DNA from: Lachnospiraceae bacterium | GTDB taxonomy: Bacteria; Bacillota; Clostridia; Lachnospirales; Lachnospiraceae | NCBI GenBank assembly: GCA_017437065.1 | Contig: JAFSBX010000137.1 | Location: 1 to 46,514 of the forward strand | DNA: 46,514 nucleotides | Reading direction: 5' to 3' | Shown: positions 1-35,021 of the stretch, one piece after another | How the letters are laid out: each line of letters begins with the position of its first letter | Position numbering within the stretch: position 1 is the stretch's first letter | Translations under genes and position numbers: made by a program | Notes under the pieces: generated by a model | Seen by the model: only the letters and a program-made list of their open reading frames with translations | Database searches by the model: none | Told to the model about the DNA's origin: nothing

Positions 1-98
1 AAAGTTGGCAAAGATTAAATCAAAATGGGGGCTTCTGGAGGCTGGAAAATCGTTCAAACTTTCCATTTTGGACGCAATTCGATTATTAACAGAAAAAT

Positions 99-124
99 GG
101 CTCTGGTGCATACGCACCAGAGCC
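99..124 (+). terminator. Perfect 11-bp hairpin, terminator-like
   Basis: The arms GGCTCTGGTGC (99-109) and GCACCAGAGCC (114-124) are perfectly complementary around an ATAC loop. Only a short, interrupted T stretch follows (GCTTTGTC), so termination would be weak. It may be the end of a gene lying before the window. I see no credible gene in 1-260: an open frame at 25-228 runs through both hairpins. Confidence 0.55.
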
Positions 125-141
125 GCTTTGTCTACAGTCTG

Positions 142-183
142 AAAGAACCTGAATTATTCATGAGAATACTTCAGGTTCTTTTT
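142..183 (+). terminator. Strong rho-independent terminator
   Basis: AAAGAACCTGAA (142-153) pairs with TTCAGGTTCTTT (170-181). The stem continues with TATTC (155-159) and GAATA (164-168) after one T/C mismatch, with loop ATGA. The stem runs directly into TTTTT (179-183). It insulates the peptide cluster from whatever lies upstream. Confidence 0.8.
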
Positions 184-216
184 GCATTTTGCGACAAAAT
201 ATTGCATTTCACGACA
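182..216 (+). repeat. Tandem direct repeat, 20-bp period, upstream of a promoter
   Basis: TTGCATTTTGCGACA (182-196) and TTGCATTTCACGACA (202-216) match at 13 of 15 positions with a 20-bp period, about two helical turns. They end 6 bp before a candidate -35 box. This layout is typical of a site for a dimeric activator bound on one DNA face, for example a response regulator. No regulator gene is in view, so the role is inferred. Confidence 0.45.
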
Positions 217-222
217 TTGGAG

Positions 223-251
223 TTGTGAGGAGATATAGCGTGTGCTATTTT
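223..251 (+). promoter_or_regulatory. Candidate promoter of the peptide cluster
   Basis: TTGTGA (223-228) is separated by 17 bp from TATTTT (246-251), which has a TG (243-244) one base upstream, an extended -10. Transcription would start near 258, just before the AAGGAGG at 261. The weak -10 would fit a promoter needing an activator at the adjacent direct repeat. Confidence 0.45.
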
Positions 252-274
252 GGTTTCAAAAAGGAGGGAAAATA

Positions 275-334
275 ATGAATCAGGCAAGTTCTTATTTTGG
301 GGAATGGGTAGATTGGATTTTAAGCTATTTTTAG
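275..334 (+). CDS. 19-residue aromatic peptide, unknown
   Basis: The frame encodes MNQASSYFGEWVDWILSYF. It is preceded by a near-perfect ribosome binding site, AAGGAGG, 8 bases before the ATG. The product has six aromatic residues among 19, two acidic residues and no basic ones, so it could form an amphipathic membrane-associated helix. It is the first gene after the candidate promoter and lies 88 bp before the Cys-rich precursor. I do not recognise it. Possible roles are a leaderless co-peptide, a signalling peptide, an immunity peptide or a leader peptide. Its reality rests on the ribosome binding site and the position, since a frame this short carries no statistical weight. Confidence 0.5.
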   Translation: MNQASSYFGEWVDWILSYF

Positions 335-422
335 ATAATCCTTTTGTTATTATATATAAATTATATAAATGCTTAAAATATTGAAAAATATATTAAATAA
401 AATTCTTATGGAGGTAACAATT

Positions 423-542
423 ATGAATGAACCTACAATTCAGGCTAAAGGATTTGAATGTATTGCATGTGCTGGTTGTGTAGTAGCAGCAGCGTATGTG
501 GTTGCCGTTGGTGGAGCATCTTTTGTAAATTTTGCATCATAG
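423..542 (+). CDS. Subtilosin-like Cys-rich RiPP precursor peptide
   Basis: This 39-residue peptide starts at an ATG with GGAGG 8 bases upstream. A short polar N-terminal part (MNEPTIQAKGFE) is followed by CIACAGC (Cys13, Cys16, Cys19) and a hydrophobic Val/Ala/Gly-rich tail ending SFVNFAS. SboA of subtilosin A has the same plan: a very short leader, an N-terminal Cys cluster and a hydrophobic C-terminal half holding the carbons that receive thioether links. SboA spaces its cysteines C-x2-C-x5-C; here it is C-x2-C-x2-C. The gene lies directly upstream of an RRE, an AlbA-like radical SAM enzyme and an ABC exporter. I infer a sactipeptide-type substrate with three possible thioether bridges. 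The linkage class and the leader cut site (perhaps near Ala8-Lys9) are not proven. Confidence 0.8.
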   Translation: MNEPTIQAKGFECIACAGCVVAAAYVVAVGGASFVNFAS

Positions 543-551
543 AGTAGTTGT

Positions 552-576
552 AGAGCATTTCCTAGGGAAATGCTCT
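552..576 (+). terminator. Intra-operon hairpin after the precursor gene
   Basis: AGAGCATTTCC (552-562) pairs perfectly with GGAAATGCTCT (566-576) around a TAG loop. The bases after it (TGGTTTGTATAAAA) contain only a weak T stretch, so it is probably a partial terminator or a 3' stabilising hairpin. In RiPP operons such hairpins commonly let precursor mRNA exceed enzyme mRNA. Confidence 0.6.
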
Positions 577-654
577 TGGTTTGTATAAAAATATAAGTTA
601 AAGAAGTATATCTAAAGTTTCATTGGAGTTTAAGAGGAGAAGGAAGCAATTAAG

Positions 655-708
655 GTGGAAGAAATCAGAGATAAATATGTGGTGTTAACTAATAAAATAG
701 AAATATAA
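655..708 (+). pseudogene. N-terminal RRE segment ended by in-frame TAA
   Basis: From GTG 655 (AAGGAAG 8 bases upstream) the frame reads 17 codons ending NKIEI, then TAA (706-708), then continues in the same frame with RYPNGYTLLSIEER into the RRE ORF. AlbA of Bacillus, from memory, has VRVHQLPEGGVL at this place, matching IEI-stop-RYPNGYTLL. The stop codon therefore falls inside the conserved first beta-strands of the RRE. A single change of T706 to A would give Lys. Either the gene is broken here, translation restarts downstream, or one base is wrong in the assembly. Confidence 0.55.
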
Positions 709-732
709 AGATATCCAAACGGGTATACGTTA

Positions 733-963
733 TTGTCAATAGAGGAAAGATCTAAGCTAATAAGAAAAAGAGATAGAAGAAACGAATATGAATTGAACGA
801 TGCAGGGTATGAAATAATATCTCGTATTAACGGCAAAAAGACATTTCATCATTTATTAGAGGAGCTTTCTACACGTTATAGTGATACCTTGGAGCATGTA
901 GAAGTAGTAGTAACTAAGTATCTTAAAACTTTAAAAGAGGAATATGGACTGGAAATTCTTTAA
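733..963 (+). CDS. RRE (PqqD-like) peptide-recognition protein
   Basis: This 76-residue ORF carries the winged-helix part of a RiPP recognition element: YELNDAGYEIISRINGKKT followed by LLEELSTRY, close to the pattern YLDLNKTAYELCMRMDGQKT in AlbA. Such domains bind the leader peptide and present it to the radical SAM enzyme. The only start downstream of the TAA at 706 near the domain boundary is a TTG at 733 with no good ribosome binding site, so the start is doubtful and beta-strands 1-2 would be missing. It overlaps the radical SAM gene by 20 bases. In AlbA the two parts are one chain, so the overlap may be translational coupling or the scar of a one-base frameshift between about 935 and 963. 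Confidence 0.65.
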   Translation: MSIEERSKLIRKRDRRNEYELNDAGYEIISRINGKKTFHHLLEELSTRYSDTLEHVEVVVTKYLKTLKEEYGLEIL

Positions 964-2059
964 TCTAAGTGAACCTAAAGAATCGAAAATAACAGTTTAT
1001 AATGTTGAAAATTTTTATCCGTCGGTAGCTTCGATTGAATTGACTCACAAATGTAATCTTAAATGTTTGCATTGTTATGGGAATTATGGTGGAAATAGAC
1101 CGACAATGAGCTGTGAGAATGCAAAAAAATTATTCAGAGATTTAAAGCAATTGGGAGTTAAAATTGTTGAACTTACGGGTGGAAATATTACGATGAATCC
1201 ACAGCTAAATGAAATATTATTAGAAGCTGTATCACAAAATTTTCAGAATGTATCGTTATTGACCAATGGAATATGGTTATCAGATGAGGTTTGCGAGACT
1301 ATTATCAAACATAAAGACAATTTGTACATTCAAATTGATTTGCATAGTCTGGATGATGATTATTTAGCTTGGTTTACAAAGGCAACTGGTACAAAGGAAG
1401 TTATTATAAATAAAATTAAGAAACTTCATGCAGCAGGTGTCGAAATGAGGATTGCAACAATAGTTACAAAAAGAAATTTGCATGAAATGGAAACGATAGC
1501 TGATTATGTATATGATTTAGGGATAAAGCAGTACGCAGTAAGTCAGGTTATTAATGTTGGACGTGCATTGCAGAATGAAAATACGGATCGGGATCTATTA
1601 CTTGATACAGATGAATTAGTAATTGAATTTTTTGAAACAGTAAGAAGGATAAATGATAAGTATAAAGATTTTATTAATTTGGTTGAAGGGACAAGATATC
1701 AGTCGCTATTTCAGAATAAACCCAATTGTGGGTGTATGACATCTAATATATCAATAACTCCTAAAGGGGAAATAAAACTTTGTAGTATGGATACGCTTGA
1801 ATATACATCTAAGCGATTTGGGAATGTTTTTGATAAAAATATACGTGAAATATATGATGAAAAGAAAGATATATTATTAGAATTGGTAAATTTAGAACGT
1901 CCACGTTTACAGTCTGAGGAATGCAAAGAATGCAATCTCAGAGGCTTTTGCCAAGGATGTATTCTTAGGGGAGTAATAGGAGCCAAAGAAAAAGGAGAAA
2001 TGTGTAAATGGTATACAAACAAGGTATCGAAGAAATTGAAACAAACACTATTATCGTAG
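944..2059 (+). CDS. SPASM radical SAM peptide maturase, AlbA-like
   Basis: The protein has 371 residues. The radical SAM cluster motif is CNLKCLHC (Cys37, Cys41, Cys44) in the context IELTHKCNLKCLHCYG. The C-terminal SPASM region carries NCGCMTS, KLCSMD, CKECNLRGFCQGC and EMCKWY, which should hold auxiliary Fe-S clusters. Several stretches resemble AlbA, the subtilosin sactisynthase (ELTGG, NCG, CQGCILRG), so formation of Cys-S to alpha-carbon bonds on the upstream precursor is the best inference. One oddity is that the usual GGE motif reads GGN (LTGGNITMNP). The ATG at 944 has GAGG only 3 bases upstream and an in-frame stop at 932, so initiation by coupling to the RRE frame is likely. Confidence 0.8.
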   Translation: MDWKFFNLSEPKESKITVYNVENFYPSVASIELTHKCNLKCLHCYGNYGGNRPTMSCENAKKLFRDLKQLGVKIVELTGGNITMNPQLNEILLEAVSQNFQNVSLLTNGIWLSDEVCETIIKHKDNLYIQIDLHSLDDDYLAWFTKATGTKEVIINKIKKLHAAGVEMRIATIVTKRNLHEMETIADYVYDLGIKQYAVSQVINVGRALQNENTDRDLLLDTDELVIEFFETVRRINDKYKDFINLVEGTRYQSLFQNKPNCGCMTSNISITPKGEIKLCSMDTLEYTSKRFGNVFDKNIREIYDEKKDILLELVNLERPRLQSEECKECNLRGFCQGCILRGVIGAKEKGEMCKWYTNKVSKKLKQTLLS

Positions 2060-2742
2060 ATAGACTGCAAAAAGAGCTTGGTAAAAAATCTGTTATAAAT
2101 GAAATCAGCTTTGAAATACCACAAAATACAATATATTCAATTATAGGTCCGAACGGTGCCGGAAAAACTACACTTATACGATTGGTATTAAAGTTGCTCA
2201 ATGAGGACGAAGGTACGATTTATTATAAGTATGGTGAACAGAAATTGGCAGCACTATTGGAAAATGATTATTTATATGAGACAAAAACAGGTTGGGAAAA
2301 TATAGTATTTTTTTGTAGTTATTTTGGCATAGGGGAAGAAGACTATATAATACGTGCAAAAGAATATATAAAGCAGCTTCAACTCGAATCGGCAATAAAT
2401 AATAAAGTTGCAACTTATTCCAAAGGGATGAAAAGAAAGTTGTCACTTATAATTGTCCTGCTTAGAAATATGCCATTTATTATTCTTGATGAGCCTACCT
2501 CAGGAATTGATCCAGTATCAAGAGTGTTAATCAGAAATGTGTTATCGGATCTTAAAGAGGAAGGAAAAACAATTTTACTGACTTCACATGATTTATCAGA
2601 AATTGAGAAATGTAGCGATTACATTTCCATATTGAAAGAAGGAAAAATTGTAGAAACATTTTGTAATAATAAAGATGTTAATAATTTAGAACAAAAATTT
2701 CTTGAGATTATAGGGAAATCAGAGGTGGCAAATGAAGAGTAG
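2008..2742 (+). CDS. ABC transporter ATP-binding protein of the RiPP cluster
   Basis: This 244-residue ATPase shows Walker A GPNGAGKTT, a signature-like YSKGMKRKLSL, Walker B FIILDEPTSG and the switch histidine in LLTSHD. The signature departs from LSGGQ, as is usual in ABC-2 exporter ATPases. The frame overlaps the end of the radical SAM gene by 52 bases. AGGAG lies about 12 bases before the ATG at 2008, so initiation is probably coupled to translation of the upstream gene. With the next gene it should form an exporter or self-protection pump for the modified peptide, in the position AlbC/AlbD hold in the subtilosin operon. The direction of transport is inferred. Confidence 0.85.
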   Translation: MVYKQGIEEIETNTIIVDRLQKELGKKSVINEISFEIPQNTIYSIIGPNGAGKTTLIRLVLKLLNEDEGTIYYKYGEQKLAALLENDYLYETKTGWENIVFFCSYFGIGEEDYIIRAKEYIKQLQLESAINNKVATYSKGMKRKLSLIIVLLRNMPFIILDEPTSGIDPVSRVLIRNVLSDLKEEGKTILLTSHDLSEIEKCSDYISILKEGKIVETFCNNKDVNNLEQKFLEIIGKSEVANEE

Positions 2743-3472
2743 AATAAAAATTTATATTAATGATATGATAAAAAATCCGTCATATTTTCTTATTATTATC
2801 TTTTATCTATTTGTGTCAGTGAAGTCGTTATTGGAAGTAAAAAAATCTTTAGTAGAAAGTGGTATGTCACAAGAGCCGTTTAGTTTTACTTTTCAATATT
2901 TGTTTTTTGTATTGTTAATAGGATTTTTCCTTTTTTTGATTATGATATGTATATCAGCAATAGTTGTATCTGATAAGTTATCCGGACGATGTGAGATGCT
3001 GTTGGCAAATAAAGTAAATATAGAATTATTAGTTAAAAATTATAGAACAGCAGTTTTTTTTCTTTGTATTATACCAATTATTATTTTGACTGCAGCTTTT
3101 GTGGGAGTATCATTTTCTAATAAATTATATGCAATTACTGATATGATAAAAAATGTGGAAAATATTGTTTTCATTTTGGCATTTCTTTTGTTTGCATTTA
3201 GTTTAATTGAGATGATAGTTTATATTTGTTTAATTGTAAAGAAAGTGGAAATAATTAAAAGTATTTTATCATATTCTGCAATTGCTTTTTTATTTATTGT
3301 AATGGTGCCGGTAAACCAATTACGTGATCGTGGTTGGATTTTGGATGCAAAATCTCTTGCATTAGTAATAAGTGCTGTAATTTTTGTGTTGAGTGGGGTA
3401 TTTTTATTAGTTACTTTTCTTATAAAAAGAAAATATTCTAATGAACAGATTACCTTATCCTTTAGACAATAA
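2732..3472 (+). CDS. ABC-2-type membrane permease of the RiPP cluster
   Basis: This 246-residue protein has about six hydrophobic spans, the first near residues 17-33 and the last near 215-235, separated by short polar loops. It has no peptidase-like motif. It overlaps the ATPase gene by 11 bases, with AGAGGTGG just before the ATG. It is the last gene of the cluster and is followed by a strong terminator. Its sequence is too divergent for a family name beyond ABC-2-type export permease, and that rests mainly on the partner ATPase and topology. It is very AT-rich, with many ATA and TTA codons, unlike the genes to its right. This suggests horizontal origin of the locus. Confidence 0.75.
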   Translation: MKSRIKIYINDMIKNPSYFLIIIFYLFVSVKSLLEVKKSLVESGMSQEPFSFTFQYLFFVLLIGFFLFLIMICISAIVVSDKLSGRCEMLLANKVNIELLVKNYRTAVFFLCIIPIIILTAAFVGVSFSNKLYAITDMIKNVENIVFILAFLLFAFSLIEMIVYICLIVKKVEIIKSILSYSAIAFLFIVMVPVNQLRDRGWILDAKSLALVISAVIFVLSGVFLLVTFLIKRKYSNEQITLSFRQ

Positions 3473-3481
3473 ACAAATATG

Positions 3482-3525
3482 AAAAATGCTCTTTCTTCTA
3501 AAATAAACAGAAGAAGAGCATTTTT
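3482..3525 (+). terminator. Bidirectional terminator, RiPP cluster / DUF885 gene
   Basis: AAAAATGCTCTTTCTTCT (3482-3499) pairs with AGAAGAAGAGCATTTTT (3509-3525) with one bulged T. A-run and T-run flanks allow termination from both sides, which suits two convergent genes. Confidence 0.85.
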
Positions 3526-3541
3526 GCGAAAAATCATGTAA

Positions 3542-5353
3542 TTATTTATATAACAGTTTCTCCAACGTCCGAAAATCCGACGGCCCCGCATTCAAAAAGA
3601 ACTTATGAAAATCATACTCCGTATATTCATCCCCCCACGCAGCTGCCGCCTTCTTTTTCAATTCCAAAATTTCCAAATACCCCAAATAATACTTCAAATA
3701 ATTCGCCGGCTCTTCCACAATATACTCATAAACTGCCCGACACGAATTCTCATTCGTAATCCCCATAGAACCAAGAAAACTCTTCACCTTCGAATAATCC
3801 GCACCATCATAATGAATAGCAATATCCAATAGCGAATAAAGTCCCAACTGCACCATCCGGTCACTCTTCAAGATCTGATAATATTGTGCCGCTTCCTCTT
3901 CCCCCGCACTCATCGCAAGCTCACTGGCATAATCATAAGAAATCAGCTCCACATAAAGTGCATAACCTTCCGCATACCCGGTATATCCCAAAAGACTGCG
4001 AATAGGATTTTTTTTTGCAGAATCGTTACTGTTAAAATATACACATTGAAACAAATGTCCAGGGTACCCTTCGTGTGCCAGTGTGGTAAATAACTCCAGT
4101 CTGCCGTAATTATTCATAGGATTTAGGTAAATTACATTGTTGTCACAGTCATCAAGCGGAGGTGTCAGGTAAAATGCCGGGCTGCTGTAAGCAGCAAGAG
4201 AGTCAGAAATGTTTTTAATAGCATATGGAACCGGTTCGGAAAGTGAAGGAAAATCTTTTAACATTCTTTTTTGCAAATAATCCAGCATTTCTTCTGCATC
4301 ATGAAAAGGAAGCACTGTCTCAAAATGTCCATCCGAAGCATGCGCAAGAAGCTTGGGATTTTTTGTTGTGGAATCAACAAGCGTTTCCAAATTTTTATCA
4401 AAATCCTCACATACAAGAGCTTTAATATCATTAATATCACGATAACATCCTACATCCCGTTTCAAAAGATAAAGATAGTATTCTTTTCCATGTTCAAATC
4501 CGGCAAGCCCACCGGTATTTTTTCCCGTACCGGACAAAATGGAAAGCCCGTCTCCGAGCCTGATATAAGAAGGAGCCATTACCGTAGTAAGCAGTCGGTT
4601 ATTTTGTGCTTCATAGCTGTTGATTTCATCGTCAGTCAGAATACCCTGCTCTTTTAGCTGTAAGAGCCTTTCCGAAAAAGTAGTCTGTAAAAAGTGGGAA
4701 TTCTGTTCCAAAAGAGAACTATCCATAATGGAATCACATTGTGTAATAACTTTTTTTAGTGCAGTATCGGACATAAAGAGTCCGGCTTTTGATTTTTCAA
4801 TTTCATAAAGAAGAAGTCCGTTAAAATATTTTTCGGACTGTTCTAAAAGTTTCAGGTAGTCTTCTATATCCTTTTTGGAGCGAAAAGTATATTCCGCAAG
4901 TAAAATAGGCAACTGTGTCTGCATTCCGGAGGAGGGAGCAAGCGGATCCTCATAATAAAAATAGTCTGTTGCAGAATATTCATTTTTAAAGTAAGAAAGC
5001 AGAAGGTCATAAGTATACGCATCATTTTTGTTCAGACGTTTAGAATCTGTATTTTGTAGGAAACTCAGACATTCCTCCAGCAAAACTTTTTGTTTTTCTT
5101 TGTTTTCAGGTGAAAAAACAGGCAGTTTTGCTACGGTATCTTTCATTCCAAAGTCTTCAGGATTTGCAACCGTATAGTGCAGAGACAGAGTATTTTCTGA
5201 AAGTTCTGAGCAGAATAAATCCTGCGTAAAATTATGAAAACTACGGGAAGTATGGGTTAGTGCCAGAAAAAGTACAAGACATAAAACCGGAATAGGCAGG
5301 AAAAAAAGAAGTTGCCTTCCGGTTGGTTTCTTTCTGTTTTGGAATAAATTCAT
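3542..5353 (-). CDS. DUF885 family membrane-anchored putative metallopeptidase
   Basis: The protein has 603 residues. It begins with a basic stretch and one hydrophobic segment (about residues 14-34), so it is probably secreted or anchored with the enzyme part outside. HEGYPGH at 427-433 and EGYAL at about 462-466 are the conserved motifs of the DUF885 family, whose members are presumed zinc metallopeptidases. The length matches the family. The start has AGAGGA about 5 bases upstream. It is transcribed alone and converges on the RiPP cluster. That cluster lacks a peptidase, but nothing in the sequence ties this protein to peptide maturation. The substrate is unknown. Confidence 0.8.
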   Translation of the reverse strand: MNLFQNRKKPTGRQLLFFLPIPVLCLVLFLALTHTSRSFHNFTQDLFCSELSENTLSLHYTVANPEDFGMKDTVAKLPVFSPENKEKQKVLLEECLSFLQNTDSKRLNKNDAYTYDLLLSYFKNEYSATDYFYYEDPLAPSSGMQTQLPILLAEYTFRSKKDIEDYLKLLEQSEKYFNGLLLYEIEKSKAGLFMSDTALKKVITQCDSIMDSSLLEQNSHFLQTTFSERLLQLKEQGILTDDEINSYEAQNNRLLTTVMAPSYIRLGDGLSILSGTGKNTGGLAGFEHGKEYYLYLLKRDVGCYRDINDIKALVCEDFDKNLETLVDSTTKNPKLLAHASDGHFETVLPFHDAEEMLDYLQKRMLKDFPSLSEPVPYAIKNISDSLAAYSSPAFYLTPPLDDCDNNVIYLNPMNNYGRLELFTTLAHEGYPGHLFQCVYFNSNDSAKKNPIRSLLGYTGYAEGYALYVELISYDYASELAMSAGEEEAAQYYQILKSDRMVQLGLYSLLDIAIHYDGADYSKVKSFLGSMGITNENSCRAVYEYIVEEPANYLKYYLGYLEILELKKKAAAAWGDEYTEYDFHKFFLNAGPSDFRTLEKLLYK

Positions 5354-5673
5354 GGAAATCCTCTTTCATGAACAGATTGAAAGGAAACGCAACCTTTCTA
5401 TTTCTTTCATTTTATGAATGGGGATGGTAATTCATGCATAATATATGAACTCTTTAATGCGAATTAAAAGAAGCAGAAACTCAAAAAAATATGCTAAAAT
5501 ATTGGAAATAAAGTGCAATTTGTGCAATTTGTTTGGCATCCGCATATGGACGGAAACAAATATCTATGATAAAGTAGTGCGTGGAAGAAAGTTTTATGTT
5601 TCAATATATGTGATATACATGGAAACTTTAGATGCTCATGGAAAGAAAAGTTTTATGGAGGAGAAGAAATACA
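5354..5673. other. Divergent intergenic region, DUF885 / transketolase
   Basis: These 320 bases separate two divergent genes and should hold both promoters. An extended -10 (TGCTAAAAT, 5492-5500) is the best plus-strand candidate, without a clear -35 box. A short tandem repeat of GTGCAATTT is at 5513-5530. A 78-residue open frame (5445-5681) overlaps the transketolase start and has no convincing features. No structured RNA was recognised. Confidence 0.4.
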
Positions 5674-27171: not shown

Positions 27172-28797
27172 ATGATTTCCTTTATTATGAGTCTTGTATT
27201 ACTGGGAGGCTTTTATGATTGGAGTGTTTCGATTACAGGAATTTGCATCTTAATTGAAATACTCGTTCTATATTGCAGGAAAAAGCCGATTTATAAAAAG
27301 AAAAAAGATTACTTCATGTGGATTCCGGCGATTGTTTTTTTGTGGATGTTTGCAGTAACATTTTGGTCCCTGGATTATTCGGAGAATTTACTGGGTATTT
27401 TGCGGGGAGGAGTAATTCTTTTTTGGATGTATCTCTGTTTTCAGATGGAAGAGACCGAAAAGCAGAAAATATTTGCAATCATCCCCTATTTGGGGGCAAT
27501 TATGGTTGGTATAGGGATAGTTAGTCTGCTGAATGAGAATTTGGCAGCAAATTTCTGGCAGGCAAGGCGTTTTGGAGGATTTTTTCAGTATGCCAATACA
27601 TGTGCATTTTTTTTGATGATAGGGATGATTTTGCAGGGGAAGAAAATAGAACAGGAAAAGAAGTTAAATTGTCAAAAAAGTATATTATCCTTAGCTATAT
27701 TGGTTATTTTGCTTGTGGGACTGTTTCTGACAGGAAGCAGAAGTATTTTACTTTTATTTCTTGCATGGGGAATTTACAAGGCGATAAGAATAAAAAGACT
27801 GCGTCTTCCATTCCTTATAACAGCAGCAGTATGCCTTATAGTGGCCTATGTGTATGGGATGATAGCAAAAGACAATCAGAATATTGCCAGAATTTTCACG
27901 ATTTTTCAGTCAAATAGTACAATTTATGGAAGAATTTTGTATGATATAGATGCGCTTTCCATTGTCAAAGAGCATCCGCTTGGTCTTGGATATATGGGAT
28001 ATTATTATATTCAGCCGGCGGTGCAGACAGGAGTTTATACCACTCGATTTGTGCATAATGATGTGTTACAGGTAATGGTTGATTATGGAATTCCGACGTT
28101 AATATTAATACTTACATATTTGGGATATCAGCTGTTAAAAGGAAAACAGAGTGCACAGCAGAAAGAACTTATAGTACTTCTCGTGCTGGCCTCACTCATG
28201 GATTTTCATTTGCAATATATGAGTTTGCTGATGCTTTTGGTATTGTGCTTTGATTTAGGAGAAAAAGAATGTGTGAAAAAGAGGAAAGAGCTGCGAGAGA
28301 ACTATGTTTTCTTCGGAATCAGCATTGTGATAGGAGTTTATTTTACCGTTGCTTTTGTTGCGCATTACTTTGGAAACAATAAATTGGCGATGATGCTTTT
28401 CAATGATTATACAAAAGCACAGATACAAAGTCTGAACGAATGCTCGGATAAAGAGGAAGCGGTGAAACTGGCAGATGATATTCTTTCACATAATTCTTAT
28501 GTATCGGAAGCGTATCATATAAAGGTTTATGCTTCGGTAATGGATGGAGATTTCCTGCAGGCAGCAGAGTTCATAGATAAGTCACTTTCGCTTAGGCGTT
28601 ATGATGTTGAAAGTTATCAACAATATGACAATTTGCTTGAAAAAATGATAGAATTATGCGAAAATATAGACATATTGCACGAAAAGAAAATATTAACAGA
28701 GATAAAAGCGGAGTTACCTCAAAGACTTGCAGCATTAGAGGAAGAAACGCACCCTATTGCGTTTAAATTACGTGACGTCCCACGGTTTATGTGGTGA
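27172..28797 (+). CDS. O-antigen ligase / Wzy-like membrane protein
   Basis: The protein has about 541 residues. Some ten or more membrane spans fill the first 400. The large loop has LGLGYMGYYYIQPAV followed by YTTRFVHNDVLQVMVDYGIP, the pattern of Wzy_C/WaaL proteins that join polysaccharide chains. The last 130 residues are soluble and helical, possibly TPR-like (NSYVSEAYHIKVYASVMDGD). The ATG at 27172 has GAGGAG about 10 bases upstream. The stop is 29 bases before a giant surface-protein gene, so a shared transcript is likely. The substrate is unknown. Confidence 0.8.
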   Translation: MISFIMSLVLLGGFYDWSVSITGICILIEILVLYCRKKPIYKKKKDYFMWIPAIVFLWMFAVTFWSLDYSENLLGILRGGVILFWMYLCFQMEETEKQKIFAIIPYLGAIMVGIGIVSLLNENLAANFWQARRFGGFFQYANTCAFFLMIGMILQGKKIEQEKKLNCQKSILSLAILVILLVGLFLTGSRSILLLFLAWGIYKAIRIKRLRLPFLITAAVCLIVAYVYGMIAKDNQNIARIFTIFQSNSTIYGRILYDIDALSIVKEHPLGLGYMGYYYIQPAVQTGVYTTRFVHNDVLQVMVDYGIPTLILILTYLGYQLLKGKQSAQQKELIVLLVLASLMDFHLQYMSLLMLLVLCFDLGEKECVKKRKELRENYVFFGISIVIGVYFTVAFVAHYFGNNKLAMMLFNDYTKAQIQSLNECSDKEEAVKLADDILSHNSYVSEAYHIKVYASVMDGDFLQAAEFIDKSLSLRRYDVESYQQYDNLLEKMIELCENIDILHEKKILTEIKAELPQRLAALEEETHPIAFKLRDVPRFMW

Positions 28798-28826
28798 TAA
28801 TAAAAAATTACATAGGAGGAAGATAC

Positions 28827-31800
28827 ATGAGAAAACTAGCAATTCTTTTGGCAGCAGTTCTTGCAATTGAGCTGTGCTGTCCGGCTACTGTATTTGCACA
28901 GACGGCAACATATGCAGTGGAAGAAACGGCAGACGAAGCGGAAATTTTAGAAGAATCTAACGAAGAAGTAGTCGAAGAAACGTTAGAAGAGTCTACGGAA
29001 GAAGTAGACGAGGAAACGTTGGAAGAGTCTACGGAAGAAGCAGTCGAAGAAACGTTGGAAGAATCTACGGAAGAAGTAGACGAGGAAACGTTGGAAGAGT
29101 CTACGGAAGAAGTAGCTGAAGAAACGTTGGAAGAGTCTACGGAAGAAGTAGCTGAAGAAACGTTGGAAGAGTCTACGGAAGAAGTAGCTGAGGAAACGTT
29201 GGAAGAGTCTACCGAGGTAGTAGCTGAAGAAACGTTGGAAGAGTCTGCCGAAGAAGCAACTGAAGAAACAGAGGATGAATTATCAGAAGAGTTCATTAGC
29301 AAAATTCAGAATGCTACGGAGGTTACTTCGAAAACAGTAGACGGTATGATAATTACCGTGTATGACAATGGATACATGACTGTAACAGGAGAACATACAG
29401 ATTCTTGGGCTGATTTTGAATTAAGTGCGGATATTAAAGAGAGAGTTACGGAAATTTATTGTGATTTTACAGCATTTGATGGCGATAATTTTGCGTATTT
29501 ATTTGATGGTTTTAGAAACGTAAAGACAATCACCTTTGGTGAAAACTTTGTAAACAGTACCGGTAAAGTTATAGAGATGAGTAACATGTTTCAGGATTGT
29601 ACATCACTGAGTTCATTGGATATCAGTGATTGGGATGTTGGAAATGTTACCCCGATGGGAAAGATGTTTTCTAACTGTTCCTCATTAACTACTTTGCAGG
29701 CGAATAATTGGAACACCGGTAAAGTTACAGATATGAGCTATATGTTTCATAATTGTACAGCGTTAACATCTTTAAACATAAGTGGTTGGAACACAAGCAG
29801 TGTGACAGATATGTCCGGTATGTTTAAGGATTGTACATCACTGAAATCTTTGAATATAAATGACTGGAATGTAAGTAAAGTTACAGACATGAGCAGTATG
29901 TTTTCCGGATGTACAGTGCTGACTACATTAGATTTAAGTAAGTGGAATCTTGGCGCTGGTGAATTGGCGTATATGTTTTACAATTGTCAGGCATTGACAA
30001 CGTTGAATGTAAGTAGCTGGGATACCGGTGAAATTACCGGCATGACCGGTATGTTTATGGATTGTAGCTCCTTAACAACACTGGATGTAAGTAAGTGGGA
30101 TACCGGCAATGTTACATACATGTATGGTATGTTTTCCGGTTGTAATGATTTGACAACATTAGATGTAAGTGGTTGGAACACCGATAAGGTTACAAACATG
30201 AGTTACATGTTTGCGGACTGCGGTAAGCTGACAACCTTGCAGTTAAATGAATGGAACACCGGTAAAGTTACAGATATGAGTCATATGTTTAACAATTGCA
30301 CAGCAATGGAAACATTAGATATAAGTAATTGGAATACCGACAATGTTACTACCATGTATTGGATGTTCCTAAACTGTAAATCCTTGACAGAACTGGATAT
30401 AAATGATTGGAATACTGGCAATGTTACGGATATGAGCAGTATGTTTTCCGGCTGTGAATCTCTTACAGCATTGGATTTAAGTAGTTGGGATATCAGTAAA
30501 GTTACAGAAATGGATGGGATATTTTACGGTGACAACAAGCTACACCTTTTGAAAACACCGGTAAATAATACAATTTCCTATGATTTTGATAATGCGGTAT
30601 TTTGTGAATTTAAGGACGGAATTATTGATACAACTTCTTCTTATAAAGAAATTCCGGTAGGAATGACTACCAGTTTGTCATTAATCAGACCGGACAATCA
30701 TGATTGGTCAAAACAAATAGAACAGGAAGACGGAACAATATTAAATATTTGTTCTATTTGTGGAATCCGGCAGGCACAAACAGGGGTAAAGCTCTTACTT
30801 CAGGAAAATTATTATAATACAAAAAGCGGTTATCCGTTATTTGCAGTATTTGTAATTCCGAAAGATACGATTTCGGGCAGCTCCTTTACATTGGAATCAC
30901 TTACATTAGCGGTGGACGATGGAAAAGAAAAGGAACTTACTGTAGGAAAGTCAACAGTGCAGAGGTACTATCTGGGTAATAACAGTTCGACATATGCAGG
31001 ATATACTCTTGGATTTAATGCAGGGTATGATAAAACGATTTCTGCAGGTGAGCATACACTTACATACAAAGCTGTAATTAATAACGGAACAGAGTCTTTT
31101 GAAGTCTCTGTTTCAAAAAAGGCACAGTTCATAGATGATTTGGCAAGTAAAGAATGCGTGATTCCATTAAAGTCCACGGAAAATACGCAATATATGTCTT
31201 CCCTTAAGGGAAATTACGTCAAAATGATATATCATCGTGTAGGAAGTTTTCAGAGCAGTTCGGAAAAATTCAAGACAATGAAATTCCGAAATCATGAGAC
31301 AAAAAAAGAAGTACCTGTTAAGATAGTCAGCAAAAAACAAGAGTATGGAAGTTCTAAAATAGCTGATACCCGTTACGGAACATTTGTGGAAGAGGAACTG
31401 GGAGTTACTGTTTATGGAACTGAGATTATTCCGGAAGATGCATACGGCGGATGGTCAGACATCAGTATTCAGTTGACAGAGGATATACCGGTAGGAATTT
31501 ATGATGTGGTATATGTATCTACCACAGGAAGAGAATATATTTTTGAAGAACGCTATGAGGCAACTGACAAAACGGTTGTATTTGAGGTCAGAGATACAGT
31601 GACAGCTGCGAAATCAAGTACTGATGAAGGAATTATGAATGCAGTTCCGGTTTATGCAGATAACAGTGGAAATTATGTTTCCATATTTGTGTATGGCTTA
31701 AACTTAAGTAAGAACAACATACCTATATTCTATAACAATGGTAAAACAGCAGCTATTACAGAGTACGATACAAATGATACTTTGTGCGGTGTGGAAGAAT

Positions 31801-34800
31801 GGGAATATGGTTTTGATTTTTCCGTAAGAAAGAATGATTCATCTGCAGGGGAATGGGTCACAGAAAGTAATATTCCCGTTAAAGTAAGCGGAGATGTTAT
31901 ATACACAGAACATCCATGGACAAATGAGCCGGCAGAAGGAAGTGAAGATGGGTTTATCATATCTTATTACAGAGAATCTCCGGCATATCGCCATGAGTAC
32001 AATATCCATGATAAATATGTCAGATATTATCTTTCACCGGAATATGTAAAGGCAGGAGATAAAATAGAAGTAACTCCTTGGAATAAATATCCTTTATTTG
32101 GAGATCCGGAGTATGTATTTGAAGCAGTTGTTCAGGATAACGGAATTGAACACTATATAGAATTTTTAAGTGATACTCAATTTTATCAAAAATACAACGA
32201 AATATCATGGGGTGCTTACATAAGAAAAAAAGGAGAAACCGAATATTTTAGTGTGTCAAACTACTGGGAGCCGGGTGCAACTATAGCTGATAATATTACT
32301 GTTCCGGCAAACTGCAGATGGGAAATCCATCCGGCAAAGGATGTAGGGAATGTAATTTACAGCGGTTCGACCACAACCAAAAAGAAGGTTTTAAACGTTT
32401 CACAGGTAAACAATCTTGCAGGCAAGGGTGCTTTCCGTATTTGTATTTATAATGCGAATGGAAAGGCAATAGATGGAGGAAAATACTTAACTTACTTTGG
32501 AGGCAGTCCGGCATATAAAATTGAATATGTGTTAAATGGCGGTGAAAATAATCCGGATAATCCGGCAGAGTATGCTTCTGAACAAGCTGTTACACTGGCA
32601 GCACCGGCAAAATATGGCTATGTATTTGGCGGATGGTATTCCGATGCAAAACTGACAAAGAAAGTAACCAAGATTGCCAAAGGAAGTAAAGGCGATAAGA
32701 CGTTCTATGCAAAATGGACATTAAGTAAATATAGTATCGTGTATAACGCAAATGGTGGTTCAGGTAGCGTAAAAGCAACTTCCTGTAAATTCGATACCGA
32801 AGCAACCGTAGCAGTAAACAAGTTTAAGAAAAAAGGATACGTTTTTGAAGAGTGGAACACGAAAAAAGATGGAACCGGAACTGCATATAAAGAAAATGAA
32901 AAAGTGTTGAATCTGACAGCTGAAAATAGTGATAAGATTCAATTGTATGCAATCTGGAGACCGGTTACATATACCGTGATACTTGATAAAAATGCATCGG
33001 ATGCGATGTTTGGAGAAATAACTGAGGCAGATGTTGCTGTAGATTACAGTTATGAAGATGAAATAGTTCTTTCCGGAAAAGAATATGAAAGAACAGGATA
33101 TACACTGTCATCATGGAATAAAAAAGCAAACGGTAAGGGTACAAAATATGTATTTGGTAAACCTTATAAAAAACTGACAGCGACAGATGGAACTGATGTT
33201 ACATTATATGCTGTTTGGACGCGTAATACTTATAAAATTACATACAATCTTGACGGTGGTAAAATTAAGGGTGCAAATCCGAAGAAATATTATGTAGATT
33301 CAGCAACGATTGTTTTAAAAGAGCCGACAAAAGCGGGATTTACCTTTGAAGGCTGGTATGAGACGGATGAAGAAGGTAACTTTATCGGAGAAAAAATTAC
33401 AAAAATTGAGAAAGGATCCCACGAAAATCTGGAACTTACTGCAAAATGGGCACCGATGAGTTACGAAGTGGAATTATATCCGAATACGGATAAATATGTG
33501 AGTGACGAAAATCAGGGTACAATAAAAGAAAGTTATGATTGTAGCCAAAAAGTTTCACCGGCAGACTGGTCAGCATTATATGAACCTATGGAGGAGTGGA
33601 AAAATAAAGGTTATGGAATTATGTACTGGAGCACAAAGCCAAATGGTACAGGGAAGAAATTCTATGACAATAAAACATACTCTGCACTTGCTACTTCCGG
33701 CACTGTAAAGCTCTATGCAAAGTGGGGAATGAAGAAATATGCGATTACCTACGAAAATACAGAAGGAGTTCGTAATACAAACCCTGCGAGCTATACATAT
33801 GATGCGACAAAGAAAATTACACTAAAGAATATCACGAAAAAAGGATATACCTTTGAAGGCTGGTATACAGATGAATCTTTTGCAGAAGGTACAAAAGTTA
33901 CAGAGCTTAACCGCAATGTGTGCAAAAATATTACACTGTATGCGAAACTGACACCAATTTCATATACTGTGAAACTGGCACCAAATGGAAATAATGTGAT
34001 TGCAAATGAAAATCTGAAAGATTCTTTTGTAGTAAACTATGATGAGTCATTTACACTTACAGAGGATTCCTATACAAGGGAACATTACCGAATTGCTTAC
34101 TGGGCTACAAACAGTAAAGGCACCGGTAAAAAGATTAAGAACGGTTCAATCAGCAATCTGACAACAAAGGATAAAGCGACAATTACGTTATATCCGAAGT
34201 GGGAGCTTGTTACTTATACTATTTCATATGAAAATGTGGATTATGAGAAAGTAACAAATAAGAGTCCGAAAAGCTATAAATATAATGCCAAAAAAGATGT
34301 TTCCCTTAAAAATCCGACAAGACCGGGCTATGCATTCGGTGGTTGGTTTACAGAGGATACAACAGCAGAAAGCTTTAATGTAAAAACAGCAAAACGCATT
34401 ACAAAAATAGCAAAAGGAACCGGTGGAGACCTTCATTTGTATGCACTTTGGACACCAATCCAATACAAGATTCAGTTGGTGGCAAATGCAAAAGATGCAG
34501 TAAGCGGAAGTGTTACAATCGGAAGTGCACAAGAGGTTATGAACATTGCATATGGAGATGCGGTTACATTTGCTACGGATTCCTATAAGAGAAAGGGATA
34601 TGTACTCACAGGATTTAGTACGAATAAGAACGGAAAAGGCACAAAATATGCACTTAATGAAGCACAGTATGTTCTTTCCACAAAAGCAAACAAAACGATT
34701 AAGTTATATGCAGTGTGGGAAAAAGTAAAAACTGTAAAAGTATCTGATGTAACAATTTCATCTGCCGCAGGAGAAATAGTGGTACGGTTTGCGCCTAATG

Positions 34801-35021
34801 CTGACTGTAATACATACGAAATATCTTATTCTCCTACGATTATGATGAGGGATGCAAAAATGCTTACAGTGTCAGCAGAAAATGCAGAAAATGCGATAAT
34901 TTCCGATGTGGAAGCAGGTATGCGTTATTATGTTCGTGTTCGTGAAGTACGTTACGATTCCTGTGGAAATGCCATAACAGGAAAGTGGAGTACACTTAGA
35001 ACGACAATTGTGGCAGAATAA
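28827..35021 (+). CDS. Giant repeat surface protein: BspA-like repeats plus Flg_new/InlB-B repeats
   Basis: The protein has 2064 residues. Residues 1-25 are a Sec signal (MRKLAILLAAVLAIELCC...VFAQ). Residues 48-143 are eight acidic 12-residue repeats of the type VxEETLEESTEE. About 230-570 holds about a dozen 23-residue BspA/DUF285 repeats (LTTLDVSxWNTGxVTDMSxMFxxC). A middle region without recognised repeats follows. About 1230-1970 holds nine InlB-B/Flg_new-type modules (GYxFxGWYTD...LYAKW, and W-TKxxGxGTKY). The end (about 1970-2064) looks like a fibronectin III fold. No LPxTG or other clear wall anchor ends the protein, so release or non-covalent binding is likely. AGGAGG precedes ATG 28827. 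Adhesion or matrix binding is inferred from family. Confidence 0.9.
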   Translation: MRKLAILLAAVLAIELCCPATVFAQTATYAVEETADEAEILEESNEEVVEETLEESTEEVDEETLEESTEEAVEETLEESTEEVDEETLEESTEEVAEETLEESTEEVAEETLEESTEEVAEETLEESTEVVAEETLEESAEEATEETEDELSEEFISKIQNATEVTSKTVDGMIITVYDNGYMTVTGEHTDSWADFELSADIKERVTEIYCDFTAFDGDNFAYLFDGFRNVKTITFGENFVNSTGKVIEMSNMFQDCTSLSSLDISDWDVGNVTPMGKMFSNCSSLTTLQANNWNTGKVTDMSYMFHNCTALTSLNISGWNTSSVTDMSGMFKDCTSLKSLNINDWNVSKVTDMSSMFSGCTVLTTLDLSKWNLGAGELAYMFYNCQALTTLNVSSWDTGEITGMTGMFMDCSSLTTLDVSKWDTGNVTYMYGMFSGCNDLTTLDVSGWNTDKVTNMSYMFADCGKLTTLQLNEWNTGKVTDMSHMFNNCTAMETLDISNWNTDNVTTMYWMFLNCKSLTELDINDWNTGNVTDMSSMFSGCESLTALDLSSWDISKVTEMDGIFYGDNKLHLLKTPVNNTISYDFDNAVFCEFKDGIIDTTSSYKEIPVGMTTSLSLIRPDNHDWSKQIEQEDGTILNICSICGIRQAQTGVKLLLQENYYNTKSGYPLFAVFVIPKDTISGSSFTLESLTLAVDDGKEKELTVGKSTVQRYYLGNNSSTYAGYTLGFNAGYDKTISAGEHTLTYKAVINNGTESFEVSVSKKAQFIDDLASKECVIPLKSTENTQYMSSLKGNYVKMIYHRVGSFQSSSEKFKTMKFRNHETKKEVPVKIVSKKQEYGSSKIADTRYGTFVEEELGVTVYGTEIIPEDAYGGWSDISIQLTEDIPVGIYDVVYVSTTGREYIFEERYEATDKTVVFEVRDTVTAAKSSTDEGIMNAVPVYADNSGNYVSIFVYGLNLSKNNIPIFYNNGKTAAITEYDTNDTLCGVEEWEYGFDFSVRKNDSSAGEWVTESNIPVKVSGDVIYTEHPWTNEPAEGSEDGFIISYYRESPAYRHEYNIHDKYVRYYLSPEYVKAGDKIEVTPWNKYPLFGDPEYVFEAVVQDNGIEHYIEFLSDTQFYQKYNEISWGAYIRKKGETEYFSVSNYWEPGATIADNITVPANCRWEIHPAKDVGNVIYSGSTTTKKKVLNVSQVNNLAGKGAFRICIYNANGKAIDGGKYLTYFGGSPAYKIEYVLNGGENNPDNPAEYASEQAVTLAAPAKYGYVFGGWYSDAKLTKKVTKIAKGSKGDKTFYAKWTLSKYSIVYNANGGSGSVKATSCKFDTEATVAVNKFKKKGYVFEEWNTKKDGTGTAYKENEKVLNLTAENSDKIQLYAIWRPVTYTVILDKNASDAMFGEITEADVAVDYSYEDEIVLSGKEYERTGYTLSSWNKKANGKGTKYVFGKPYKKLTATDGTDVTLYAVWTRNTYKITYNLDGGKIKGANPKKYYVDSATIVLKEPTKAGFTFEGWYETDEEGNFIGEKITKIEKGSHENLELTAKWAPMSYEVELYPNTDKYVSDENQGTIKESYDCSQKVSPADWSALYEPMEEWKNKGYGIMYWSTKPNGTGKKFYDNKTYSALATSGTVKLYAKWGMKKYAITYENTEGVRNTNPASYTYDATKKITLKNITKKGYTFEGWYTDESFAEGTKVTELNRNVCKNITLYAKLTPISYTVKLAPNGNNVIANENLKDSFVVNYDESFTLTEDSYTREHYRIAYWATNSKGTGKKIKNGSISNLTTKDKATITLYPKWELVTYTISYENVDYEKVTNKSPKSYKYNAKKDVSLKNPTRPGYAFGGWFTEDTTAESFNVKTAKRITKIAKGTGGDLHLYALWTPIQYKIQLVANAKDAVSGSVTIGSAQEVMNIAYGDAVTFATDSYKRKGYVLTGFSTNKNGKGTKYALNEAQYVLSTKANKTIKLYAVWEKVKTVKVSDVTISSAAGEIVVRFAPNADCNTYEISYSPTIMMRDAKMLTVSAENAENAIISDVEAGMRYYVRVREVRYDSCGNAITGKWSTLRTTIVAE
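28968..29255 (+). repeat. Eight tandem 36-bp coding repeats
   Basis: Each unit encodes VxEETLEESTEE. Variation clusters at the second residue (Val, Asp, Ala), and the last units diverge (TEV, SAEE). Near-identical DNA between units implies recent slippage or recombination, so copy number may vary between strains. The repeats are directly adjacent with no spacers, which rules out CRISPR. Confidence 0.9.

Follow-up and report, generated by a model that had tools for sequence, protein, structure and literature searches.

A thurincin H-type sactipeptide locus, probably silent, with an interrupted maturase gene in a Lachnospiraceae genome

Thurincin H of Bacillus thuringiensis (precursor ThnA, maturase ThnB) is described in its published account as carrying four nested bridges, Cys4-Ser28, Cys7-Thr25, Cys10-Thr22 and Cys13-Asn19, and its cluster as holding three identical genes for the four-cysteine precursor, a one-protein ThnB, and protease and regulator genes (PMC8172795). 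Gnavucin D, from the gut isolate Mediterraneibacter gnavus HB038, is presented as thurincin-like, with 9-aa leaders, five precursor genes and four modifications, and the description of its compact cluster identifies no leader peptidase gene (PMC13239113). Here we describe a related locus, a radical S-adenosylmethionine (SAM) sactipeptide cluster in the first 3,525 positions of a 46,514-nucleotide contig (JAFSBX010000137.1) from a Lachnospiraceae bacterium (assembly GCA_017437065.1). This whole stretch of DNA is referred to as the window.

Like thurincin H, the window locus brings together a precursor of roughly 40 aa with a short leader and an N-terminal C-x2-C array, a maturase comprised of a ribosomally synthesized and post-translationally modified peptide recognition element (RRE), a radical SAM domain and a SPASM/Twitch domain, and ABC genes; ThnB was compared by its description. 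Unlike thurincin H, the window has one precursor gene, three cysteines and an interrupted maturase. Gnavucin D, also compared by description, resembles it as a thurincin-like sactipeptide of a gut isolate with a 9-aa leader, and differs in its five precursor genes and four modifications. The C-x2-C spacing and a thurincin-like gut sactipeptide are therefore known, and it is the interrupted maturase and the reduced cysteine array that are peculiar here. This family of precursor and maturase is not named in the titles and abstract beginnings searched in the open-licence literature.

We read the window cluster as a thurincin H-type sactipeptide locus, one that probably makes no product in this strain at present. 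This draws on the gene content, the homology, the interruption, the reduced cysteine array, and damage to production genes in three other loci. In intact relatives, the RRE would bind a leader of a predicted length of roughly nine residues. By a thioether chemistry that we infer, the radical SAM/SPASM part would tie the cysteines of the N-terminal array, each to the alpha-carbon of one residue of the hydrophobic tail, so that a nested hairpin results. The ABC proteins would serve for export of the product or for protection of the producer. Since the window maturase is interrupted and its precursor is one cysteine short, the cluster most likely stands without a mature peptide. Its ABC genes are open, and it may persist for its transporter.

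The interrupted maturase gene and the reduced cysteine array

The radical SAM/SPASM part of the maturase is a 371-aa open reading frame (ORF) at 944-2059 on the plus strand, as are all cluster features given here. It matches Radical_SAM (5.2e-25) and SPASM (1.7e-06) in Pfam. Its best curated NCBIfam family is AlbA (NF012164), the maturase family of subtilosin A (SboA/AlbA), at 149 bits and below the cut-off of 850, and its best PDB chain is SkfB. Together with the cysteine-rich precursors of its relatives, this upholds the original prediction of an AlbA-like SPASM enzyme in a sactipeptide-type cluster. Identity as a ranthipeptide or SCIFF maturase was ruled out by scores below the cut-offs for PapB (76 of 340 bits) and for the six-Cys maturase (69 of 425 bits).

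In eight other loci (L008, L023, L024, L025, L030, L031, L137 and L138; L labels denote loci and G labels genomes) the RRE and radical SAM parts share one open frame of 448–470 aa, a single protein as in ThnB. In contrast, the window RRE frame opens at GTG655, behind a good ribosome-binding site, and an in-frame TAA at 706-708 ends this first piece (655-708); after it the frame is free of stops up to 963. The radical SAM ORF begins at 944 in a different frame. The GTG655 frame yields only 17 residues. The remainder of the RRE, at 709-963, is PqqD-like (PF05402, 3.9e-07), and the open ORF within it begins at TTG733, with a ribosome site that is weak by eye and with the N-terminal part of the RRE missing. 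The RRE of the original prediction is not a complete gene, and the interruption had been missed; an intact RRE of the sactipeptide kind is absent, as is a single RRE-radical SAM protein. The profile search also counts one TAA in the window, as it does in genome G410.

How much of the RRE has been lost was judged by sequence alignment and by the fold described for SkfB. When the piece at 709-960 was compared with the RREs of the eight relatives, none of 500 shuffles scored as well in any comparison. For the 17-residue piece (655-705), between 3 and 52 of 500 shuffles did as well with four relatives and between 317 and 434 with the other four; it is mainly frame and position that speak for its homology. 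ThnB lacking the RRE is reported still to cleave SAM and to form no thioether (PMC8172795), and in CteB the leader is described as pairing with strand 3 of the RRE sheet (PMC6231123).

In a look for a paralogue that might complement the damage, two other PqqD-type places were seen in the same genome (G000; contig C123 at about 3828-5063 and contig C142 at 71296-71460), one of them fused with a radical SAM domain in a 484-aa frame. They are possibly part of another radical SAM peptide cluster.

The precursor gene lies at 423-542, with an ATG start and a GGAGG site, and encodes the predicted 39 residues with the motif CIACAGC and a hydrophobic tail. Cysteines stand at positions 13, 16 and 19, and alanine at 22. 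Taken from position 369, where it could first start, it is the sole window ORF of 30–70 aa with the pattern C..C..C. Twenty random windows from a first-order Markov model each held 0–2 such ORFs (mean 0.45), so the motif alone could be due to chance. Chance does not account for the small cysteine-rich ORF that occupies the same place in 10 relatives, nor for the score of the window precursor against that of L023, which none of 2000 shuffles reached. For the other nine relatives, 0 to 12 of 2000 shuffles did so. The alignment with the L023 precursor is ungapped over 39 positions, 14 of them identical, and places Ala22 at the fourth cysteine, a position where other relatives too have a cysteine.

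The small cysteine-rich ORF is found 5' of the maturase homologue in these 10 loci, in one of which (L035) only a maturase remnant is left. All 10 relative precursors have at least four cysteines, and in eight of them four or five form an unbroken C-x2-C run; those of L024 and L035 have three in the run plus one or two others. The original prediction had named homologous loci lacking any such ORF as evidence against it. Such loci do exist, and they are the Paraclostridium bifermentans loci L009 and L011, with an early-ending maturase, and the distant L032 only. The four-cysteine array C-x2-C-x2-C-x2-C of the thurincin type is not present in the window, where three cysteines are in register and the fourth is replaced by alanine; on its sequence, the array looks like a four-cysteine array minus one. 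If the thurincin H register held, Cys13, Cys16 and Cys19 would face positions 37 (Phe), 34 (Phe) and 31 (Gly).

Comparison with solved structures points the same way at low strength. The L138 precursor, which contains TCWSCLACAAC, has as its sole PDB match 2lbz (listed as Thuricin17, TCWSCLVCAAC), at a weak E of 0.089; we take 2lbz to be the thurincin H structure. With a profile of all eleven precursors, 2lbz appeared at E 7.1, below many chance matches. A plasmid tblastn search with the L138 precursor gave three records only, at E 4–9, which were taken as chance, and a search of the window's own genome found no second precursor (next match E 0.9).

Related loci and damage beside open ABC genes

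At E 1e-40, the radical SAM ORF found matches in 4 of 397 genomes of the family, its own included. A six-row alignment at E 1e-60 matched 4 of 392 genomes of the order, 3 of 398 of the phylum and 3 of 391 of the class; all three counts take in the own genome and G410. The AlbA score of the maturase place in the genome search was 147 bits, and the other listed places, in 21 genomes, scored 57 bits or less. The best four of 97 plasmid records were Anaerococcus prevotii pAPRE01 and three P. bifermentans plasmids. A scan of genome contigs (at least 529 confirmed, 80 kept) added Tepidanaerobacter, Clostridium, Anaerosalibacter and Ezakiella records; ORFs were read in L029, L030, L031, L032 and L035, picked by score and partial match, and the other 75 of the 80 were at most 28% identical. 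Viral contigs gave 22 loci from 111 candidate stretches, the best at E 7e-15 and 25% identity; the top identity of 41% was confined to query residues 22-84 (L116). When genome and viral contigs were scanned with single proteins, no match came up.

Where measured, the window maturase is 36–50% identical to those of its relatives. In the maturase tree it falls inside a seven-row group, within which its position is not resolved (84/89). Because the relatives were found through the maturase, loci that have lost it altogether cannot appear among them.

The relatives (A. prevotii pAPRE01, Tepidanaerobacter, the Clostridium and Ezakiella metagenome-assembled genomes, and Anaerosalibacter) have the order precursor, maturase, ABC genes, as in the window; in Tepidanaerobacter L029 the contig end cuts off the region where the precursor would lie. 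They differ from the window in having a one-frame maturase where this is intact, and several have two-component, M50-like or agr-type genes. The M50-like metalloprotease genes lie at 3218-4264 in L024, 6063-6869 in L138 and 8699-9559 in L023; Pfam M50 is below its cut-off in L024 and L138, and HExxH was recognised by eye in L023. They are candidate leader peptidases. Beside the window cluster no M50-like gene was seen, nor any other protease or regulator gene. Just upstream of the L023 cluster, at 2992-5636, is a class II lanthipeptide synthetase (DUF4135 and LANC_like) split in two frames. In P. bifermentans L009–L011, agrB/agrD-type genes directly precede the early-ending maturase homologue, and no cysteine-rich precursor was found upstream of the latter in L009 and L011, the two that were scanned. 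A mining study of anaerobes lists an A. prevotii sactipeptide locus, Apre_1837 (PMC4289311), which we take to be not our relative but the cluster next to it on that plasmid.

Is damage to the production genes peculiar to the window? We tabulated 15 loci, with 'intact' meaning open frames, and judged 11 of them for precursor and maturase. L029, with its 5' end cut, and L009–L011, in which no precursor was seen (L010 was not scanned), were left out, and the distant L032 and L140 are not in the table. Production genes are damaged in 4 of the 11 (the window, L022, L025 and L035), and in all four the ATPase and permease are open. The counts are small and no statistical claim is made.

Each damaged locus has its own lesion. 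The maturase of L022 (2264-3637; genome G410) has an in-frame TAA inside the RRE, elsewhere than that of the window. In the Ezakiella locus L035 the maturase is reduced to its C-terminal part and one precursor cysteine reads Phe. L025 (G319) is identical over 5,945 bp to L137 (G690, from another genus), and on the other side 94% identical over 4,058 bp. These two stretches adjoin in L137; in L025 they are about 1 kb apart with an IS630-type transposase between them, and this insertion removes the start and ribosome site of the precursor. The sequence of this pair marks recent sharing and recent damage. The P. bifermentans plasmids have an early-ending maturase ORF; the Walker A part is missing from the ATPase ORF of L009, and L010 carries an IS256 transposase that separates its ATPase and permease ORFs, both of them open. 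The state of L009 and L010 goes against a simple rule that the ABC genes are always kept.

The window ATPase (2008-2742) has Pfam and NCBIfam family matches and is a putative export and/or self-immunity component. It is 45–50% identical to the ATPases of L008, L022, L029, L030, L035 and L137, and 30–34% identical to those of L011, L023, L024, L031 and L138. The neighbouring ORF at 2732-3472 is predicted to be the permease by its position and hydrophobicity. It matches no Pfam or NCBIfam family, and among 11 loci only three (L008, L030 and L035) show a match to it, short and weak in each; of the ABC exporter proposed originally, the ATPase stands on family evidence and this second gene does not. 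The putative role of the pair may be immunity, and export is equally possible.

Weighing silence against other explanations

Several observations count against a silent locus. Every radical SAM and SPASM cysteine that does not vary among six sequences is present in the window, its 371 radical SAM codons are open, and the rest of the RRE sequence is well preserved, which means that the damage is recent or that the fragments are still in use. The shift of frame sits in the interdomain linker, with AGAGG near ATG944. SuiB, as described, binds its peptide without its RRE, which is not contacted (PMC6231123); as ThnB is reported to need its RRE, loss of maturation in the window is likely, not certain. 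The open locus L024 also has three in-register cysteines, with two more before them, and a reduced array is thus not in itself a sign of decay. L025 retains a shorter precursor ORF, read from an internal ATG. In the pneumococcal blp bacteriocins, the report in question disputes with data a 'cheater' reading of broken genes (PMC4739728), and the analogy with cheaters calls for caution here.

Might the gene have been split and still work? The RRE and radical SAM parts could act as two proteins in trans, like PqqD and PqqE, and make a three-bridge thurincin-like peptide, which we regard as unlikely but tenable. ORF 733-963 matches PF05402 by itself (5.3e-07) and covers positions 10-64 of 67 of this PqqD profile; the radical SAM ORF overlaps it by 20 nt and has its own ribosome-like site; the radical SAM, ATPase and permease ORFs are all open; and a standalone RRE, as in PqqD, is an architecture described before (PMC6231123). 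However, the alternative starts serve it poorly, with TTG733 weak and costing the N-terminal part of the RRE and GTG655 ending so early. The two parts are one frame in eight loci, and the reduced cysteine array fits relaxed selection. In its boldest form, which seems to us rather improbable, a discrete RRE fragment working in trans with the radical SAM protein would give the first three-bridge thurincin-type hairpin (Cys13/16/19 to about 37/34/31), and RRE breakage, which happened separately here and in G410, would be a way in which fused sactisynthases have more than once become two-protein ones.

A second explanation is a sequencing or assembly error in an ordinary intact thurincin H-type locus with a three-cysteine precursor. 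The genome is a draft of 156 contigs with 5.58% contamination, and the locus is in one of three genomes of the genus and thus in a single strain, so that such an error has to be entertained. It would require two independent changes, the TAA and the frame change, about 250 bp apart, neither of them in a long homopolymer (by eye), and production damage recurs in other loci, so that we hold an error to be improbable.

The proposal of the original prediction, a new functional subtilosin-like sactipeptide with a new three-cysteine ring pattern, is very improbable: AlbA is the best curated family and subtilosin also has three cysteines, but these are spaced differently from those of the window, the AlbA score is far below its cut-off, the maturase gene is interrupted, and the C-x2-C repeats are those of thurincin H, with at least four cysteines in the 10 relative precursors, mostly in that register, and an array one cysteine short in the window.

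Surroundings of the cluster and its meaning

The cluster was predicted to lie between terminators and to be more AT-rich than its surroundings. The second point was borne out, with GC of 0.295–0.331 in the first four 1-kb segments, as low a value being found in only 2 of the 42 later ones (range 0.307–0.426). On the first, strong terminator-like hairpins do enclose the cluster at 141-182 (fold z -7.07 against shuffles) and 3482-3525 (z -4.96), but both are absent from the consensus terminator scan. That scan lists five sites (shuffle mean 1.1), among them an attenuator- or terminator-like hairpin at 552-576, 3' of the precursor (z -3.3). An Rfam search of positions 1-4000 gave no RNA match up to E 0.5.

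Before the first hairpin, positions 1-142 are a repeated element; the genome has three copies of it, none farther than about 125 bases from a contig end. It is probably the end of an insertion sequence; its ORF 5-139 had no match in a Pfam search. A 19-aa ORF at 275-334 (MNQASSYFGEWVDWILSYF) has a strong AGGAGG site and stands 148 nt upstream of the precursor. It was considered as a second precursor or signal and rejected: the DNA pattern for EWVDWI was found in 3 of 140 loci, all of them copies of the window, and no counterpart was listed within 450 nt upstream of nine other precursors. Far from the cluster, at 28791-35021, an ORF of 2,076 aa resembles a surface protein; it has acidic tandem repeats (EETLEESTEEV) and numerous repeated modules.

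With the locus and its relatives, the range of thurincin H-type sactipeptides now takes in varied anaerobic Bacillota, and two genera share one cluster without a difference over 5.9 kb. A genome-mining survey that scores such clusters as producers would arrive at too high a number. Should the ABC pair confer immunity, the loci described here would be test cases for bacteriocin loci that provide immunity only.

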